This document shows, in pieces, positions 9,829 to 63,172 of a stretch of DNA of 64,000 nucleotides. The number at the start of each line of letters is the position of its first letter. Position 1 is the first letter of the stretch. The stretch is from Prochlorococcus sp. AG-355-J09 (GTDB taxonomy: Bacteria; Cyanobacteriota; Cyanobacteriia; PCC-6307; Cyanobiaceae), in assembly GCA_003278735.1 (NCBI GenBank), contig QCDO01000001.1, forward strand, positions 1 through 64,000, in the 5' to 3' direction. A program made the translations under genes and the position numbers. Under the pieces are notes generated by a model that was given only the letters and a program-made list of their open reading frames with translations, did not search any database and was not told where the DNA came from.

Positions 9829-11232
9829 ATGGCTAAAGATGCACTAATAGTCAAAACAACTCCTCTGCCTCAAAGTAGAATTTCATTCGAATTAGAAATA
9901 CCATCTGAGACATGCAAAACGTGTGTAAATGAAACAATCAGTTCTATCAGTCGTTCGGCTAAAATTCCGGGATTTAGACTTGGTAAGATTCCTAAACAAG
10001 TCTTAATCCAAAGAATTGGCATCACACAATTACATGCTTCTGCTCTAGAAAAAATTATTGATAAATCATGGCAAGAAGCGTTAAAAATAAAATCTATAGA
10101 GCCACTAAGTGAGCCAGAATTGGTAGATGGATTTGAATCTTTACTTGCAAAGTTTAGTCCTGAAAAATCACTTAAGGTTACCCTTCAAACTGATGTTGCC
10201 CCAGAATTAAAACTTAAAAAATCCAAAGGACTAAGTGTTGAAATATCAAAGACAAAGTTTGATCCTAAGTCAATAGATGAAGCGCTAGAAAAATCTAGAA
10301 ATCAGTTTGCAAACATTATTCCAGTTACCAATAGAGCAGCAAAATTAGGAGATATTGCTGTAGTTAGTTTCAAAGGAAAATATAAAGATTCTGGTAAAGA
10401 GATTGATGGTGGATCAAGTGAATCAATGGATCTTGAGTTAGAAAAAAACAAAATGATTCCCGGTTTCGTTGAGGGAATCGTAAAGATGAAAATTGGTGAT
10501 ACTAAAACACTTAACCTTAAATTTCCTGATGATTATTCTCATGAGGATTCAAGAGACAAAGAAGCAATTTTTGAAGTAAATCTTAAGGATCTTAAGGAAA
10601 AAGAATTGCCTGAACTTAATGACGATTTTGCAAAACAGTCTGGCAACAAAGAATCATTAAAAGAGTTAAAGAAAGATATTGAAAAGCAACTTAGAGACAA
10701 TTTTGAAAAAACTCAAAAAGATATCAAAATTGAAGCTTTATTAGATGCCTTAACAAACGAATTGGTTGCTGAAATACCAAAATCTATGATTGATATAGAA
10801 GTGAGGAATAATATTGAACAAACCGCTCAAAGATTTGCTCAACAAGGTCTTGATGTAAAGTCTACTTTCACTCCGGAATTAGTTAAGTCATTAGCAGAGT
10901 CCACAAGGCCTCAAGCTGAAAAAAATGTTCAAAGAAATTTAGCTTTGAAAGCATTAGCTGAAACAGAAAACATAAAAGTCGAGAAAGATGAAATTGATTT
11001 AAAAATGAAAGATTATGAAGATGCAATCTATCAATCTTCAAAACAAATAGATATTAAAAGATTAACAGAAGTAGTAAGTAACGATCTACTCAAAGAAAAA
11101 TTAATAATTTGGCTTGAAGAAAATTCTGAAGTAAAAGAAAAAACTGCAAAAACTTCTAAAGCTTCCAAAACCTCCAAAACAACAAAAGCCACAAAAACTC
11201 CAAAAACTCAAAATAAAAAAGAAAAAAAATAA
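9829..11232 (+). CDS. tig: Trigger factor (ribosome-associated chaperone and prolyl isomerase)
   Basis: Binds nascent chains at the ribosome exit tunnel. The ribosome-docking signature GFRLGKIPK is at residues 48-56. An FKBP-type prolyl isomerase domain occupies about 165-250 (AVVSFKGKY through ATF-like strands), followed by the long alpha-helical chaperone arms to about 425. The last 40 residues are a low-complexity tail of Lys, Thr, Ser and Ala in an irregular K-T/S repeat, not part of the conserved fold. Total length is 467 aa. The gene heads the tig-clpP-clpX order common in bacteria and is followed by clpP after 65 bases, so folding and degradation genes are together. Confidence 0.95.
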   Translation: MAKDALIVKTTPLPQSRISFELEIPSETCKTCVNETISSISRSAKIPGFRLGKIPKQVLIQRIGITQLHASALEKIIDKSWQEALKIKSIEPLSEPELVDGFESLLAKFSPEKSLKVTLQTDVAPELKLKKSKGLSVEISKTKFDPKSIDEALEKSRNQFANIIPVTNRAAKLGDIAVVSFKGKYKDSGKEIDGGSSESMDLELEKNKMIPGFVEGIVKMKIGDTKTLNLKFPDDYSHEDSRDKEAIFEVNLKDLKEKELPELNDDFAKQSGNKESLKELKKDIEKQLRDNFEKTQKDIKIEALLDALTNELVAEIPKSMIDIEVRNNIEQTAQRFAQQGLDVKSTFTPELVKSLAESTRPQAEKNVQRNLALKALAETENIKVEKDEIDLKMKDYEDAIYQSSKQIDIKRLTEVVSNDLLKEKLIIWLEENSEVKEKTAKTSKASKTSKTTKATKTPKTQNKKEKK

Positions 11233-13415: not shown

Positions 13416-13435
13416 AATTAAAGTTTAATTTTTTT
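13415..13435 (+). terminator. Weak candidate terminator after clpX
   Basis: Starting at the last base of the clpX stop codon, AAATTA and TAATTT can pair around a 5-base loop, followed by four more T residues. The shape fits an intrinsic terminator but the stem has no G-C pairs, so it would be weak and could be chance. dnaX starts 39 bases later. Confidence 0.25.
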
Positions 13436-13473
13436 AATTGAATCCCGAATTTTTCTAAATTAATGAAAAATAA

Positions 13474-16540: not shown

Positions 16541-16548
16541 AAAAATTG

Positions 16549-19363: not shown

Positions 19364-20158
19364 ATGGAAAATTTTTCTTCTTTATTAATTGGTGGAAAAC
19401 AATTTTCAAGTAGATTAATGGTTGGTACTGGCAAATACAAATCTACTCAAGATATGGTGGAAAGTTTGTCAAATGCTGAAACGGAAATTATAACTGTCGC
19501 TATTAGAAGAATTAAAAATGATCAGACCGGAGAAAATTTACTCGAAAAGATCAACTGGGAAAAATACTGGATGCTTCCTAATACAGCTGGTTGTGTTAAT
19601 TCCGATGAGGCCGTCAGAATAGCAATTTTAGGTAGAGAACTTGCAAAATTATCTGGTCAAGAAGAAAATAATTTTGTGAAGTTAGAAGTTATTCCTGACA
19701 AAAAGTATTTGCTACCAGATCCAATAGAAACTCTTAAAGCAGCAGAAATTTTAATAAAAAAGGGTTTCGCTGTACTACCTTATATAAATGCAGATCCTAT
19801 TCTTGCAAAAAGACTAGAAGAAATAGGTTGTGCAACTGTAATGCCATTGGGCTCTCCCATAGGCTCCGGGCAAGGTTTGTTAAATTTATCAAATATAAGG
19901 ATTATTATTGAGAATGCAAAAGTGCCAGTAATAATTGACGCAGGAATTGGGGTGCCTAGTGAAGCTTCTCAAGCCATGGAAATTGGAGCTGATGGTGTTT
20001 TAATCAATAGTGCAATAGCACAAGCTGCTAATCCTCCTCTAATGGCTCAAGCGATAAATTATAGTGTGAAAGCTGGCAGGCAAGCTTTTCTGGCAGGAAG
20101 AATTAAAAAACAAGACTTTGCAGTAGCAAGTTCTCCGGAAAAAAATATATCTAATTAA
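19364..20158 (+). CDS. thiG: Thiazole synthase
   Basis: Builds the thiazole phosphate of thiamine from DXP, ThiS-thiocarboxylate and dehydroglycine. The 264 aa TIM barrel has MVGTGKY at 19-25, NTAGC at 73-77, Lys106 in VKLEVI as the expected Schiff-base lysine, [17 protein letters not shown] in the centre and [21 protein letters not shown] in the C-terminal phosphate-binding part. It follows the TPR gene by 2 bases. No thiS or thiO is adjacent and I see no TPP riboswitch in front of it. It is followed by about 170 bases without a gene before sqdB. Confidence 0.96.
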
Positions 20159-20328: not shown

Positions 20329-21523
20329 GTGAAAGTTATTGTTCTAGGTGGAGATGGTTTTTGCGGTTGGCCTTGTGCGGTGAATTTAGCAGAGCAAAAG
20401 CATGATGTAATTATTGTCGACAATTTAAGTCGTAGAAAAAATTGATATTGATCTAGAGGTAGAATCTTTAACTCCAATTTCTTCCATAACAGAACGACTT
20501 TCTGCATGGGAAGAGACTGGAGGCAAGCCTATGAGATTTCTTAACATGGATATCTCTAAGCAATATCAAAAATTACTCAATTTGCTCATTGATGAAAAAC
20601 CAGATTCCGTGATCCATTTTGCAGAACAAAGAGCAGCACCATACTCGATGAAATCCAGTTTCACCAAAAGATATACAGTGGATAATAATGTTAATGGCAC
20701 CCACAACCTACTTGCTGCGATAGTAGAGAGTAATTTAGATATTCATGTTGTTCATTTAGGAACAATGGGAGTTTACGGATATGGATCACATAGAGGTGCA
20801 ACAATTCCAGAAGGTTATCTAAAAGTTGAAGTTCCACAACCTGATGGAAGCCGCTTTGAAGAAGAAATATTACACCCTGCAAGCCCAGGTAGTGTCTACC
20901 ATATGACTAAAACTTTAGATCAATTATTATTTCTTTACTACAACAAAAATGATCTTGTAAGGATCACCGATCTACATCAAGGCATTGTTTGGGGAACAAA
21001 TACAGAAGCAACTTTAAAAGATCCTAGATTAACAAACCGATTTGACTATGACGGAGATTATGGAACTGTTTTAAACAGATTTCTAATGCAAGCTGCAATT
21101 GGATATCCATTAAGTGTTCATGGGACAGGAGGGCAAACAAGAGCATTTATACATATAAAAGACTCTGTAAAGTGCGTACAACTTGCTCTTGAAAATCCTC
21201 CAAAATCTGGAGAACGAGTCAAAATCTTTAATCAAATGACTGAGAGTCATCAAGTTGGAGAACTAGCTAAAAAAGTTGCTTCTCTTACTGGAGCTGATAT
21301 CAATTATTTACCAAATCCAAGGAATGAAGCAGTAGAAAATGATCTAATTGTTGATAATAAATGCTTTATAGAATTAGGTTTAAACCCAACTACTCTTGAT
21401 AATGGCTTATTAGAAGAAGTTGTTGAAGTTGCTAAAAAATACTCCAATAGATGTGATCTTAATCGCATACCTTGTGTTTCATCCTGGACAAAAAAACAAG
21501 CTGAGGCTATAAAGACTAATTAA
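20329..21523 (+). pseudogene. sqdB: UDP-sulfoquinovose synthase, interrupted by a +1 frameshift
   Basis: SqdB converts UDP-glucose and sulfite to UDP-sulfoquinovose, the head-group donor for the thylakoid sulfolipid SQDG. Translation from the GTG at 20329 gives MKVIVLGGDGFCGWP, the NAD-binding N-terminus, then reaches TGA at 20443-20445 after 38 codons. The rest of the protein continues in the next frame (IDIDLEVES onward) to the stop at 21523. Removing one A from the A6 run at 20436-20441 restores one reading frame of 397 codons plus stop, close to the family's normal length. The downstream part keeps TMGVYGYG, YHMTK with the catalytic Tyr-Lys, and intact codons throughout, so decay is recent or the extra base is a sequencing error. 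The ATG at 20531 is only an internal Met. sqdX follows after 27 bases. Confidence 0.9.
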
Positions 21524-21550: not shown

Positions 21551-22684
21551 GTGAAAATTGCATTGTTTACTGAAACTTTTTTACCTAAAGTTGACGGCAT
21601 AGTCACAAGACTGACTAAAACAATTGAATTTTTAATAAAAAATGGTGATGAAGTCATAATTTTTTGTCCAGAGGGGTGTCCAGAATCATATATGGGAGCA
21701 ACTGTAGTGGGAGTTGCTGCAATGCCATTACCCTTATACCCAGAGTTGAAGCTTGGTTTGCCAGGTCCTGCAGTCTCAGAAAAGTTAGAAAAATTTAACC
21801 CAGATTTGATACATGTTGTTAATCCAGCTGTACTTGGCTTAGGTGGCATATGGTTGGCGAAAACTAATAATATTCCTTTAATTGCTAGCTACCATACTCA
21901 TCTTCCGAAATATCTGGAACATTACGGTATGGGTATGCTAGAGCCACTTTTGTGGGAATTACTTAAAGCAGCTCATAATCAAGCCTTGTTAAATTTGTGT
22001 ACTTCTACCGCTATGGTCAATGAATTACAAGATAAAGGTATTCAAAGAACTGCTCTTTGGCAAAGAGGAGTAGATACTTACAGTTTCAGACCAGATTTAA
22101 GAAGTGAGAAAATGAGAGATAAATTATTTGGAGAATATAAAGATGCTAATTATTTATTGATTTATGTAGGAAGATTATCAGCAGAAAAACAAATTGAGAG
22201 AATTAAACCAGTCTTAGAAAGTATCCCTAATGCTTGTCTAGCGCTTGTAGGTGACGGACCGTATAGAAACCAACTTGAAAAAATCTTCGAAAATACCAAG
22301 ACTAATTTCATAGGATATTTATCTGGTGATGAACTTGCTAGCGCCTATGCCTCTGGAGATATATTTTTATTTCCCTCTAGTACAGAAACACTTGGTTTGG
22401 TTTTACTAGAAGCAATGGCCGCAGGATGTCCAGTTATCGGAGCCAATAAGGGGGGGATTCCAGATATAATTAGCGATGGGATTAATGGTTGTTTATATGA
22501 TCCAGATGAAAAAGATAATGGGGTACAAAGTTTGATTGAAGCAACAAAAAAAATTCTAGAGAATGAAGATAAAAGAGAAATAATGAGAAAAGAGGCACGA
22601 AAAGAAGCAGAAAAATGGAATTGGAATCAAGCAACGTTACAACTGCAAAATTATTATTCAGATACGCTCAAAGAAATAGATTAA
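21551..22684 (+). CDS. sqdX: Sulfolipid synthase, SqdX-type glycosyltransferase
   Basis: Transfers sulfoquinovose from UDP-sulfoquinovose to diacylglycerol, completing SQDG. It is a GT-B family 4 protein of 377 aa. The N-terminal domain opens with MKIALFTETFLPKVDGIV and has the HVVNPAVLG and SYHTHLP loops. The C-terminal nucleotide-binding domain has YVGRLSAEKQI, LVGDGPYR and PSSTETLGLVLLEAMAAGCP with the E-x7-E pair. The start is a GTG; no earlier start fits the family N-terminus. It sits 27 bases behind sqdB, its metabolic partner, on the same strand, so loss of SqdB by the upstream frameshift would leave this enzyme without donor. Confidence 0.93.
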   Translation: MKIALFTETFLPKVDGIVTRLTKTIEFLIKNGDEVIIFCPEGCPESYMGATVVGVAAMPLPLYPELKLGLPGPAVSEKLEKFNPDLIHVVNPAVLGLGGIWLAKTNNIPLIASYHTHLPKYLEHYGMGMLEPLLWELLKAAHNQALLNLCTSTAMVNELQDKGIQRTALWQRGVDTYSFRPDLRSEKMRDKLFGEYKDANYLLIYVGRLSAEKQIERIKPVLESIPNACLALVGDGPYRNQLEKIFENTKTNFIGYLSGDELASAYASGDIFLFPSSTETLGLVLLEAMAAGCPVIGANKGGIPDIISDGINGCLYDPDEKDNGVQSLIEATKKILENEDKREIMRKEARKEAEKWNWNQATLQLQNYYSDTLKEID

Positions 22685-22698
22685 ATTTGATCTAAATT

Positions 22699-22947
22699 TT
22701 ATGCTACGTGTGGGGGCGTAGGATTACTATATGAACTTAAAGGAAGTATTAGAGTAGCTATATTTTGATTCTTTTCAGGCCTTTTTTTCTTTGAGAATTT
22801 TTTACCAAAAGGTACTCTTATGACATTAGTCCCCTCTATGGAACAAATATTTGAGTTATCTCCAGAAAAATTATTTACAAAATTTGGTAAGTTGACGTTT
22901 TTAATTGGCAATTGCTTAACGTTACCAGATTTAAAATCCTTGGTCAT
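22699..22947 (-). CDS. Small hypothetical protein, 82 aa
   Basis: I do not recognise this protein. It occupies most of the 392-base stretch between sqdX and gcvP. The sequence is basic in the middle (KKFSKKKRPEK) and ends in a Pro/Thr/Ser-rich tail (NPTPPHVA), with no membrane helix. Residues ahead of the Met could extend it in frame, so the true start is uncertain. A competing plus-strand frame (22820-23002, 60 aa) overlaps it. The minus frame has a less biased composition and reads more like a protein, but neither has a clear ribosome-binding site. It is offered as a possible small gene only. Conservation in related genomes would decide. Confidence 0.4.
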   Translation of the reverse strand: MTKDFKSGNVKQLPIKNVNLPNFVNNFSGDNSNICSIEGTNVIRVPFGKKFSKKKRPEKNQNIATLILPLSSYSNPTPPHVA

Positions 22948-23058
22948 AGCTTCAAATACCCCAAAAAATTTGATGCTCGAATATTTTAATAAAAAAATTT
23001 AAAAAATTTCTATAAGAAAATATTAAATTTTTATTCACATTGATAATAACTAAATAAA

Positions 23059-23079
23059 TAAAGGGATGCTAGTCCTTTA
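23059..23079 (-). terminator. Candidate terminator of the gcv unit
   Basis: On the minus strand, beginning exactly at the gcvP stop codon, TAAAGG pairs with CCTTTA around a 9-base loop and is followed by TTTATTTAG. A 6-bp stem with two G-C pairs and a T-rich tail is a reasonable, if modest, intrinsic terminator for the four-gene unit that ends with gcvP. Confidence 0.4.
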
Positions 23080-41050: not shown

Positions 41051-41122
<72 letters not shown>

Positions 41123-41219
41123 TATAATAAATCATTCTAATAGATGAAGTTGAAATATTTATACTAAGTATTTAAATATTTCATGATTGAGGCAAAATTA
41201 AATAAATAAAATATATCCT

Positions 41220-42065
41220 ATGTCCTCAAACGATAGACATAACGTACAAAAAAATTCCGATTTAGAGACTTTAGAAAACTTTAAAATTTTAATATCTAAT
41301 ATCAAATCATTAAAAGATAAAACTTGGGGATGCCCTTGGCAGAAAATACAGTCTCATAAATCGTTGATCCCATTTTTACATGAAGAAAGTAATGAATTTA
41401 TAGATGCGATATATGAAAAAAAGGCGGATAACATATGTGAAGAGTTAGGAGATCTTTTATTACAAGTAATGCTTCATGCTGAAATCGGTTACGAAAAAAA
41501 AGAATTTGAACTAAATGATGTTATAAAAAATCTAAACAAGAAAATTATTAATAGACATCCATATATTTTTAAAAAAAAAGAAAAAGTATCTCTAGAAAAA
41601 TCGCAACAGATTTGGGAAAACATTAAAAATTCAGAAGAAGAAACACCTCATATGGAATCATCAATTAGTAAAAATTTAAATTGGAAAATCAAAAATTTAC
41701 CATCAATGGTTGGAACAGATAAAATCACAAATGTTGTTAAAGAATATGGTTTTAAATGGGAGAGTACCGATCAGATTTTTGAAAAGTTAGAAGAAGAGAT
41801 TAATGAATTAAAGGAAGCAATTAAAAGCAATAATGATTCAGAAATAAAAAATGAATTTGGGGATATTTACTTTACCCTTCTGAATCTCTCAAACTTTTTA
41901 AAAATAAATCCTGAATCAGCTCTGCAAAAAACCAATAAAAAATTTTTAGACAGATTTTCAATCATTGAACATCATGCAGGCGATAATATAAAAAAACAAA
42001 CTCCTAAAGACTTTCAACGGCTTTGGCAAATAGCCAAACGAAAACTTAAAAGAAAAAATTCTTAA
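41220..42065 (+). CDS. mazG: Nucleoside triphosphate pyrophosphohydrolase MazG
   Basis: Hydrolyses NTPs or dNTPs to monophosphates and pyrophosphate, and in some bacteria lowers ppGpp. Two tandem MazG domains are visible: the first at about residues 30-125 (WGCPWQKIQSHKSLIPFLHEES, EELGDLLLQVMLHAEIG), the second at about 165-260 (EELNELKEAI-like helix and EFGDIYFTLLNLSNFL). Acidic helix pairs carrying the metal-binding E-x-x-E and E/D residues are present in both. Length 281 aa. The ATG is preceded by 97 bases after the divergent tRNA. speE begins 7 bases after its stop. Confidence 0.92.
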   Translation: MSSNDRHNVQKNSDLETLENFKILISNIKSLKDKTWGCPWQKIQSHKSLIPFLHEESNEFIDAIYEKKADNICEELGDLLLQVMLHAEIGYEKKEFELNDVIKNLNKKIINRHPYIFKKKEKVSLEKSQQIWENIKNSEEETPHMESSISKNLNWKIKNLPSMVGTDKITNVVKEYGFKWESTDQIFEKLEEEINELKEAIKSNNDSEIKNEFGDIYFTLLNLSNFLKINPESALQKTNKKFLDRFSIIEHHAGDNIKKQTPKDFQRLWQIAKRKLKRKNS

Positions 42066-48526: not shown

Positions 48527-49204
48527 ATGAAAATGACAAATTTTTTACCCTTAGTCGAACAATTTCATTCATTACAAGGTGAAGGTTATCACGCTGGAAA
48601 AAGTGCTTTTTTTGTCAGATTAGCCGGATGTAAAGTTGGATGTTCGTGGTGCGATACCAAAAATTCATGGGACGAAAAAAAACATCCTTCTATATCAATT
48701 GAAAAAATAATAGATCGCATAAAAATTGCTAGAAAAAAAGGAGCATCTTTTTGCGTTATTACAGGTGGAGAACCTTTACAACATAACTTGGATAATTTTT
48801 GCAAAGCCATAAAAAAAATGACGATGGGAGAAGAACAAAAGCCAATGAAGATTCATATTGAGACAAGTGGAGTTAATTCGATATCAGGAAGCTATGACTG
48901 GATTACTTTATCTCCTAAAAGACACTCACCTCCAAAAAATTATTTTTTAAAAAACTGTAATGAAATCAAAATAATCATAAATGAAATAGAAGATGTTGAA
49001 TTTGCTATTCAAATAAAAAATGAAACTTTAAAACAATATCAACTCTCTAAAAGCGAAGATGACTTAAAAAAAGAAGATAAAATTTTTTATTTACAGCCAG
49101 CATGGAATAATGCAAATGGTTTCTCTCTTGCTATTGATTTCGTAAAACATAACCCCGATTGGAAATTGAGCCTTCAAACTCACAAATACTTAAAAATCAA
49201 TTGA
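48527..49204 (+). CDS. queE: 7-carboxy-7-deazaguanine synthase
   Basis: Radical SAM enzyme that makes the 7-deazaguanine core for queuosine. The cluster cysteines are Cys35, Cys39 and Cys42 in CKVGCSWCDT, with ITGGEPLQH near 78-86 as the GGE motif and HIETSGVNS near 105-113. Length is 225 aa. The first ATG is used; a second Met two codons later is also possible. The stop is 6 bases before the queC ATG, and together they make the last two steps towards preQ0 in one unit. Confidence 0.95.
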   Translation: MKMTNFLPLVEQFHSLQGEGYHAGKSAFFVRLAGCKVGCSWCDTKNSWDEKKHPSISIEKIIDRIKIARKKGASFCVITGGEPLQHNLDNFCKAIKKMTMGEEQKPMKIHIETSGVNSISGSYDWITLSPKRHSPPKNYFLKNCNEIKIIINEIEDVEFAIQIKNETLKQYQLSKSEDDLKKEDKIFYLQPAWNNANGFSLAIDFVKHNPDWKLSLQTHKYLKIN

Positions 49205-61813: not shown

Positions 61814-63172
61814 ATGCCAAACTTTATAAAAGATAATATTCAAAAAACAAGTAATAATTCTTCTCGTAGCATCAAAAAATTATTAAAACAAAGATCTCTG
61901 GTCGTTGCATTTTCGCTCTTGTTAACAGGTTTAGGAGCCTCAATTACAAGCATATCTTTTAAAACTGGAATCTATTTTATTAATAATTGGAGATTAGCAT
62001 TATTAGACCAATTCCCATCTATTGCGGTCTTACCTATTTTTGGAGCTCTAGGAGGAGCTTTTGCAGGATATTTGATCAAAAATATAGCACCTGCTGCAAA
62101 AGGTTCAGGAGTGAGTCAAATCATGGGTTTTTTAAGACATAAAAAAGTTCCAATGAATTTAAAAGTAGGCTTAGTAAAGCTAATATCAGGAATTATTGCT
62201 ATTGGTAGTGGATTCCCTTTGGGTCCAGAAGGTCCATCCGTTCAAATGGGAGGATCTGTAGCTTGGCAAATGGCTAAGTGGCTCAAGGCTCCTACAGCTT
62301 TTAGAAGAGTAATAGTAGCTGCAGGGGGTGGTGCTGGCATAGCTGCAGTATTTAGCGCTCCATTAGGAGGGTTTGTCTATGCAATAGAAGAGTTATTAAA
62401 CTCTGCAAGACCAGTAATACTGCTATTAGTAGTAATCACAACTTTCATTGCAGATTCATCTGCTGATATTATTCAAGCCTTAGGTTTAGATCCTAAAGCA
62501 GGAGGGTTTGATTTTAACCTCGGATTTTTGATACAAAAAGAATATGACCCATCAGTTTTTTTCTTACCTGAAGATTTTATTTACTTAGTTTTACTAGGAA
62601 TAATTATTGGAATATTTGCAGAATTGTACAGCAGATATGTTTTGTTGATGCAAAATCTTGGGAAAAAGTGGTATAAAAATAAATTTGTTTTAAAAATGAG
62701 TATTTGTGGACTTATTTTAGGAAGCATCTACTCTTGCTTACCCAGTACATTTCATAATTTAGATGAATTACAGAAAATAATAGCTGAACAAAATACAAGT
62801 ATTGGAATTGCTTTATTAGCAGTTTTAGTATTATTTATCACGACAGGCTTAGCTGCAGCATCTGGAGCTCCTGGAGGATTGTTCTATCCAATGCTTACTT
62901 TAGGTGGGTCAATCGGACTAATAATGGGGAGCTGGGTGGAAATTGCGACAGGACATGCACCAAGTACATACATTTTTGCAGGAATGGGAGCTTTCGTAGC
63001 AGGATGTTCGAGAACACCAATTACCGCAATGTTTTTAGCTTTCGCTTTAACAAAAAATTTATTAATAATGAAACCTGTGTTAATCAGCTGTATTGCCAGT
63101 TTCTTGATAGCAAGAGCTTTTAATGAAGAATCAATTTATGAAAGACAAATACAAATAGAATTAGAGGACTAA
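61814..63172 (+). CDS. ClC-family chloride channel or Cl-/H+ antiporter
   Basis: Polytopic membrane protein of 452 aa without a C-terminal CBS pair. The selectivity sequences are GSGVSQ at 97-102, GPEGPSVQMG at 137-146 with the gating glutamate Glu139, and GGLFYP near 354-359. The Glu pair EELL at 192-195 stands where the proton glutamate of E. coli ClC lies, suggesting an antiporter. The loop GSGVS has Ser where many members have Pro. The C-terminal inner-gate Tyr is not obvious in my rough alignment. Function as chloride or other anion transport is inferred. It begins 9 bases after acnB. Confidence 0.87.
   Translation: MPNFIKDNIQKTSNNSSRSIKKLLKQRSLVVAFSLLLTGLGASITSISFKTGIYFINNWRLALLDQFPSIAVLPIFGALGGAFAGYLIKNIAPAAKGSGVSQIMGFLRHKKVPMNLKVGLVKLISGIIAIGSGFPLGPEGPSVQMGGSVAWQMAKWLKAPTAFRRVIVAAGGGAGIAAVFSAPLGGFVYAIEELLNSARPVILLLVVITTFIADSSADIIQALGLDPKAGGFDFNLGFLIQKEYDPSVFFLPEDFIYLVLLGIIIGIFAELYSRYVLLMQNLGKKWYKNKFVLKMSICGLILGSIYSCLPSTFHNLDELQKIIAEQNTSIGIALLAVLVLFITTGLAAASGAPGGLFYPMLTLGGSIGLIMGSWVEIATGHAPSTYIFAGMGAFVAGCSRTPITAMFLAFALTKNLLIMKPVLISCIASFLIARAFNEESIYERQIQIELED

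Follow-up and report, generated by a model that had tools for sequence, protein, structure and literature searches.

A one-base insertion splits sqdB in a draft Prochlorococcus genome and probably reflects amplification, sequencing or assembly error

Among described systems, SqdB is most directly compared with the plant sulfolipid enzyme SQD1, for which solved structures are available (PDB 1QRR, 1I24 and 1I2B). The sulfolipid SQDG has been described as a main membrane lipid of Prochlorococcus (PMC9298688), and accounts of its physiological role in other cyanobacteria point in two directions. It is reported to be needed for growth in Synechocystis PCC 6803 (PMC3311599) but not to be essential in Synechococcus PCC 7942 and PCC 7002 (PMC5638391), so that a null mutation of sqdB need not be lethal. 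Among the papers found that mention both Prochlorococcus and sqdB, none deals with sqdB loss, judged by title.

A second body of work that bears on the present locus concerns the accuracy of genomes assembled from single cells. A workflow described for Prochlorococcus single cells retained contigs over 2,000 bases and gave a mean of 3.0 indels per 100 kb on benchmark cultures (PMC6122165), and identical workflow figures are given in PMC8443664. In a separate benchmark, single-cell assemblies of E. coli were reported to be no worse than those of isolates, while indels were 3-9 times as numerous in two other species (PMC4287102).

The window analysed here, the first 64,000 nucleotides of contig QCDO01000001.1 of Prochlorococcus sp. 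AG-355-J09, contains an sqdB gene whose reading frame is broken close to its 5' end. On the forward strand, the frame that begins at GTG 20329 closes at TGA 20443-20445 after 38 amino acids, as given by the list of open reading frames. This 5' piece (20329..20445, 38 codons and then TGA) carries the NAD-binding motif GGDGFCGW and corresponds in alignment to the beginning of SQD1. The A run, read directly from the sequence, has six As, one more than in the copies of relatives, and occupies exactly 20436..20441 of the same strand. Beyond it, the remainder of the gene (20435..21523, forward strand), comprising SqdB residues 36-397 and a TAA stop at 21521-21523, lies in the +1 frame. In a protein search with the 397-residue SqdB of a relative, the match was accordingly split between two frames: residues 1-37 fall at 20329-20439, with 97% identity, and residues 36-397 fall at 20435-21520, with 99% identity, neither piece having an internal stop. 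Codon comparison showed that omitting one A yields 397 amino acids followed by a stop. The initial annotation had proposed the early stop, the continuation in the +1 frame and the restoration of a 397-codon gene by one A less, and each was reproduced; the frame break is a correct observation of a one-base insertion.

The identity of the gene, and the open sqdX-like gene that had been proposed downstream of it, were also borne out. An intact SqdB from the relative G022 aligns over residues 2-388 with SQD1 (PDB 1QRR, E 4.8e-88), that is, over the whole length, and the same copy is matched by the two pieces of the window gene at 97% and 99% identity. A chance effect of open reading frames was ruled out, since the protein of the interrupted gene matches solved SQD1 structures with E about 5e-88. 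The window copy thus resembles SqdB and SQD1 in having all of the aligned residues 2-388, distributed over two frames, and differs in that its frame is broken after residue 37 and no single open reading frame covers the protein; the extra A separates the 38-residue frame with the NAD-binding motif from the +1 frame with the catalytic part. The upstream neighbour, thiG (19364..20158, forward strand), is intact (PF05690 ThiG, E 8.3e-107). Immediately downstream is an open gene for a family-4 glycosyltransferase of 377 amino acids (21551..22684, forward strand, from the list of open reading frames; PF00534 and PF13439), which we take to be sqdX from its position and from general knowledge of the pathway; among the NCBIfam matches listed for it, none reached a curated cut-off. 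The claim that sqdB has no second copy also held across the genome, where the sole protein matches at E <= 0.001 were the two pieces of the one gene.

The NCBIfam equivalog for this enzyme, NF041015, has a curated cut-off of 575 bits, and even the intact copy of a relative (L004:1501-2691) scored only 325.4 bits, indicating that the cut-off is unsuited to this group; a 330-residue piece of the window gene scored 256.7 bits. Naming by NF041015 would miss this group of Prochlorococcus SqdB proteins.

The comparison of A-run length with close relatives that the initial annotation had suggested was carried out, and it sets the window apart: relatives' copies have at most five As, against six here. 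In a genus sample of 266 genomes, the exact six-A string was found in one, the present genome; an exact pattern would miss relatives with altered flanking bases, a gap that is filled in part by loci that were read directly. When the window was aligned with each of four relatives (G012, G022, G032 and G043, 95.4-96.5% identical at the DNA level), it had one extra A relative to every one of them. Removal of 7 duplicates from 109 relative loci left 102 distinct ones; the named relatives are mostly Prochlorococcus (for example AAA795-I06 and MIT 9401). The gene is open through the site in 99 of the 102, two others lack their start because a contig ends there and one carries an unrelated nonsense codon, and the longest A run at the site, across 100 relative loci with the motif, is five. 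More broadly, 205 of the other 265 genus genomes have an SqdB match at E <= 1.3e-257 (hand count); among the matches listed, sqdB is open over essentially the entire query, a small frame break being possible in matches beyond these. The annotation had also considered that relatives might have six As together with a different working start, and this was not seen: with five As or fewer, they are open from the same start region. The variant is therefore absent from the relatives found while the gene is otherwise constrained, the pattern expected of an error.

The one unrelated interruption among the relative loci belongs to another single-cell genome, AG-363-N20 (L109), in which a TGG codon is changed to TGA after residue 220, at about locus positions 2987-2992. 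This change may be real or may be an amplification error.

Apart from the extra A, the window copy shows no sign of decay. It differs from the nearest copy of the same length by 12 synonymous codons and 1 non-synonymous codon, it has no private amino-acid changes relative to 83 relatives (a flag at residue 36 is the frame junction itself), and no further stop or change of frame was found within it. Neither additional disabling changes nor relaxed constraint, as would mark an established pseudogene, are apparent. A broken copy in this state implies that the break, if real, is very recent. Like a recent frameshift pseudogene, the gene has a premature stop, brought about by one base added to a homopolymer run; unlike one, it shows no more damage, and the allele was not found in any second lineage.

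The break is also isolated within the window. With 25 residues at the N terminus and 12 at the C terminus left free to differ, the other 53 genes of the window read in a single frame throughout in all four aligned relatives. Systematic miscalling of homopolymers was rejected on this ground, since the 54 listed genes (61 kb) contain 300 homopolymer runs of six or more. An isolated break points to one lone event and away from a platform that often miscalls homopolymers. Within genes, sqdB is the only place with a net indel common to all four relatives; between genes, such indels occur at 13416-13473, 16541-16548, 22685-23076 and 41081-41219, the last with one further base of difference in G032. 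Small indels at gene ends were seen in the tail of 41220-42065 (relative to G043 and G012; in G022 there are two, which cancel in count), at 48530 (relative to G012) and at 63171 (relative to G012 and G043). A repeat-rich tract at 11136-11209, near the 3' end of the gene 9829-11232, varies in length among the four relatives, and the alignment with G043 is split there.

A wider comparison with G022 covered 204 kb of a 224-kb sample of this genome (six 100-base pieces aside), a 20-kb stretch of contig C4 (L133) being excluded for want of an anchor in G022. When 209 open reading frames of G022 were placed on this genome, 172 ran through and 26 had no match; of the rest, 6 received a flag and 5 matched in part, 4 of these lying at the ends of stretches and 1 being different only in its first 20 residues. 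Four of the six flags, along with five from the reverse direction, were stops in the first 43 or last two residues and were taken as differences in starts or ends. The remaining two were sqdB itself and a two-base gap near 8657 of contig C2, close to the 5' end of a small protein without an NCBIfam match, which was not counted as a clear break because the true start of the protein is unsure. No second clear break was found in the 204 kb compared.

The genome comprises 1.58 Mb in 46 contigs at 94% completeness. Among six of its higher-numbered contigs, the shortest has 2,089 bases, which fits the filter of over 2,000 bases in the Prochlorococcus single-cell workflow and suggests that this assembly is a single-cell genome from such a workflow. 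At 3.0 indels per 100 kb, about 1.9 would be expected by calculation per 64 kb, and about 7 indel-bearing copies of sqdB in some 206; a single frameshift was found. Errors in such genomes thus appear to be rarer than the benchmark mean, nearer 0.4 per 100 kb as estimated from this one gene, and even at that rate several errors per genome would be expected.

Taken together, these comparisons favour the reading that sqdB is ordinary in this genome but for an A introduced in error, and to this reading a probability of about 0.78 can be assigned. Whole-genome amplification, sequencing or assembly would have added one A to sqdB, and the living cell would have had five As and made a normal UDP-sulfoquinovose synthase. 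Such an origin would match what is known of one-base indel errors in single-cell assemblies in that there is a single, private event in an undecayed core gene, and in that the draft is fragmented, with shortest contigs only slightly above 2,000 bases; the difference is that the error in the window is itself deduced from sequence comparison. Of the three explanations that the initial annotation had put forward, sequencing or assembly error has the strongest support, the change being private, lone and undecayed, while real loss and useful slippage gained no positive evidence. As it stands, the locus is mainly a caution: where a core gene of a draft or single-cell assembly has a lone frame break, reads are needed before gene loss is concluded.

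The most serious competitor to an error is that the extra A is real, a very recent one-base slippage in this cell or its immediate lineage having inactivated sqdB, stopped sulfolipid synthesis and stranded the sqdX product without substrate. Slippage on an A run is an ordinary mutation, the isolation of the event means that it is no symptom of generally poor sequence, and the assembly has no second sqdB. SQDG is, besides, not essential in the two Synechococcus strains, and the nonsense codon of AG-363-N20, likewise real or an error, provides another single-cell genome with an interrupted sqdB. Against this stand the undecayed state of the copy, the absence of the six-A allele (as an exact pattern) from the other 265 genus genomes, the place of SQDG as a main membrane lipid of Prochlorococcus and its requirement for growth in Synechocystis; moreover, a wild population of large size should only very rarely contain a true null of a gene for a main membrane lipid. 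A real inactivation of this kind is therefore regarded as improbable, at somewhat under one-quarter the weight of the error, and it is marginally less probable that one-base slippage truly deprived a wild Prochlorococcus cell of sulfolipid synthesis. If it did, Prochlorococcus, with its sulfolipid-rich membranes, would offer a natural sulfolipid null, and one of the most abundant phototrophs in the ocean would be shown to manage without SQDG, at least temporarily.

Two further possibilities would leave the six-A run real and some enzyme activity intact. The run might be bypassed, either through slippage in transcription or on the ribosome, where Lys-tRNA would slip by +1 between AAA codons, giving some full-length SqdB. 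The sequence does permit one-base re-pairing on AAA ahead of the stop, and on paper a +1 slip brings the frame back; a review (PMC5009743) covers slippage on runs of nine As or Ts as well as cases in Buchnera and Blochmannia. That said, six As make a short run, and a genome-wide study of transcription is reported to have found deletions rarely tied to homopolymer runs and to have detected no frame-restoring error (PMC5574713). Nor is there a conserved recoding site, as a programmed frameshift would have, since the run is private, the six-A form is in no relative found, and the relatives' copies need no slip to stay in frame (99 of the 102 loci). Useful slippage at this run is unlikely, and production of full-length SqdB by such means is rated as very remote. 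Alternatively, the 330-residue protein encoded from the internal ATG at 20531 (20531..21523, forward strand) might be a working enzyme with a new start, its reading frame being open and matching the Pfam Epimerase family (PF01370) above the Pfam cut-off. The match begins only at profile position 47, and the protein is without SqdB residues 1-67, among them the GGDGFCGW motif aligned with SQD1; the relatives have one continuous frame from the upstream start. This new start appears more remote still.

Absence of sqdB elsewhere in the genus was also surveyed. Across the 266 genomes, 22 had no match, 26 had weak paralogue matches only and 12 had a partial gene (the latter two by hand count). Three genomes of 93-99% estimated completeness (G124, G160 and G170) are without both sqdB and sqdX. 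In G160, contigs stop exactly at both sides of the sqdB locus, which points to a gap rather than a loss, and in G124 and G170 the matching contig also ends at the locus, on the one side that matched. Natural loss in these three was accordingly set aside in favour of assembly gaps, a reading that covers them and not the other 45 genomes without sqdB. All 12 partial genes were examined, and 11 begin or stop at contig ends, judged by coordinates. In the genome G242 (L141, G242:C13), sqdB breaks off after residue 311 and continues into an inverted stretch whose place in the window is about 3 kb away, a junction that looks like an amplification chimera.
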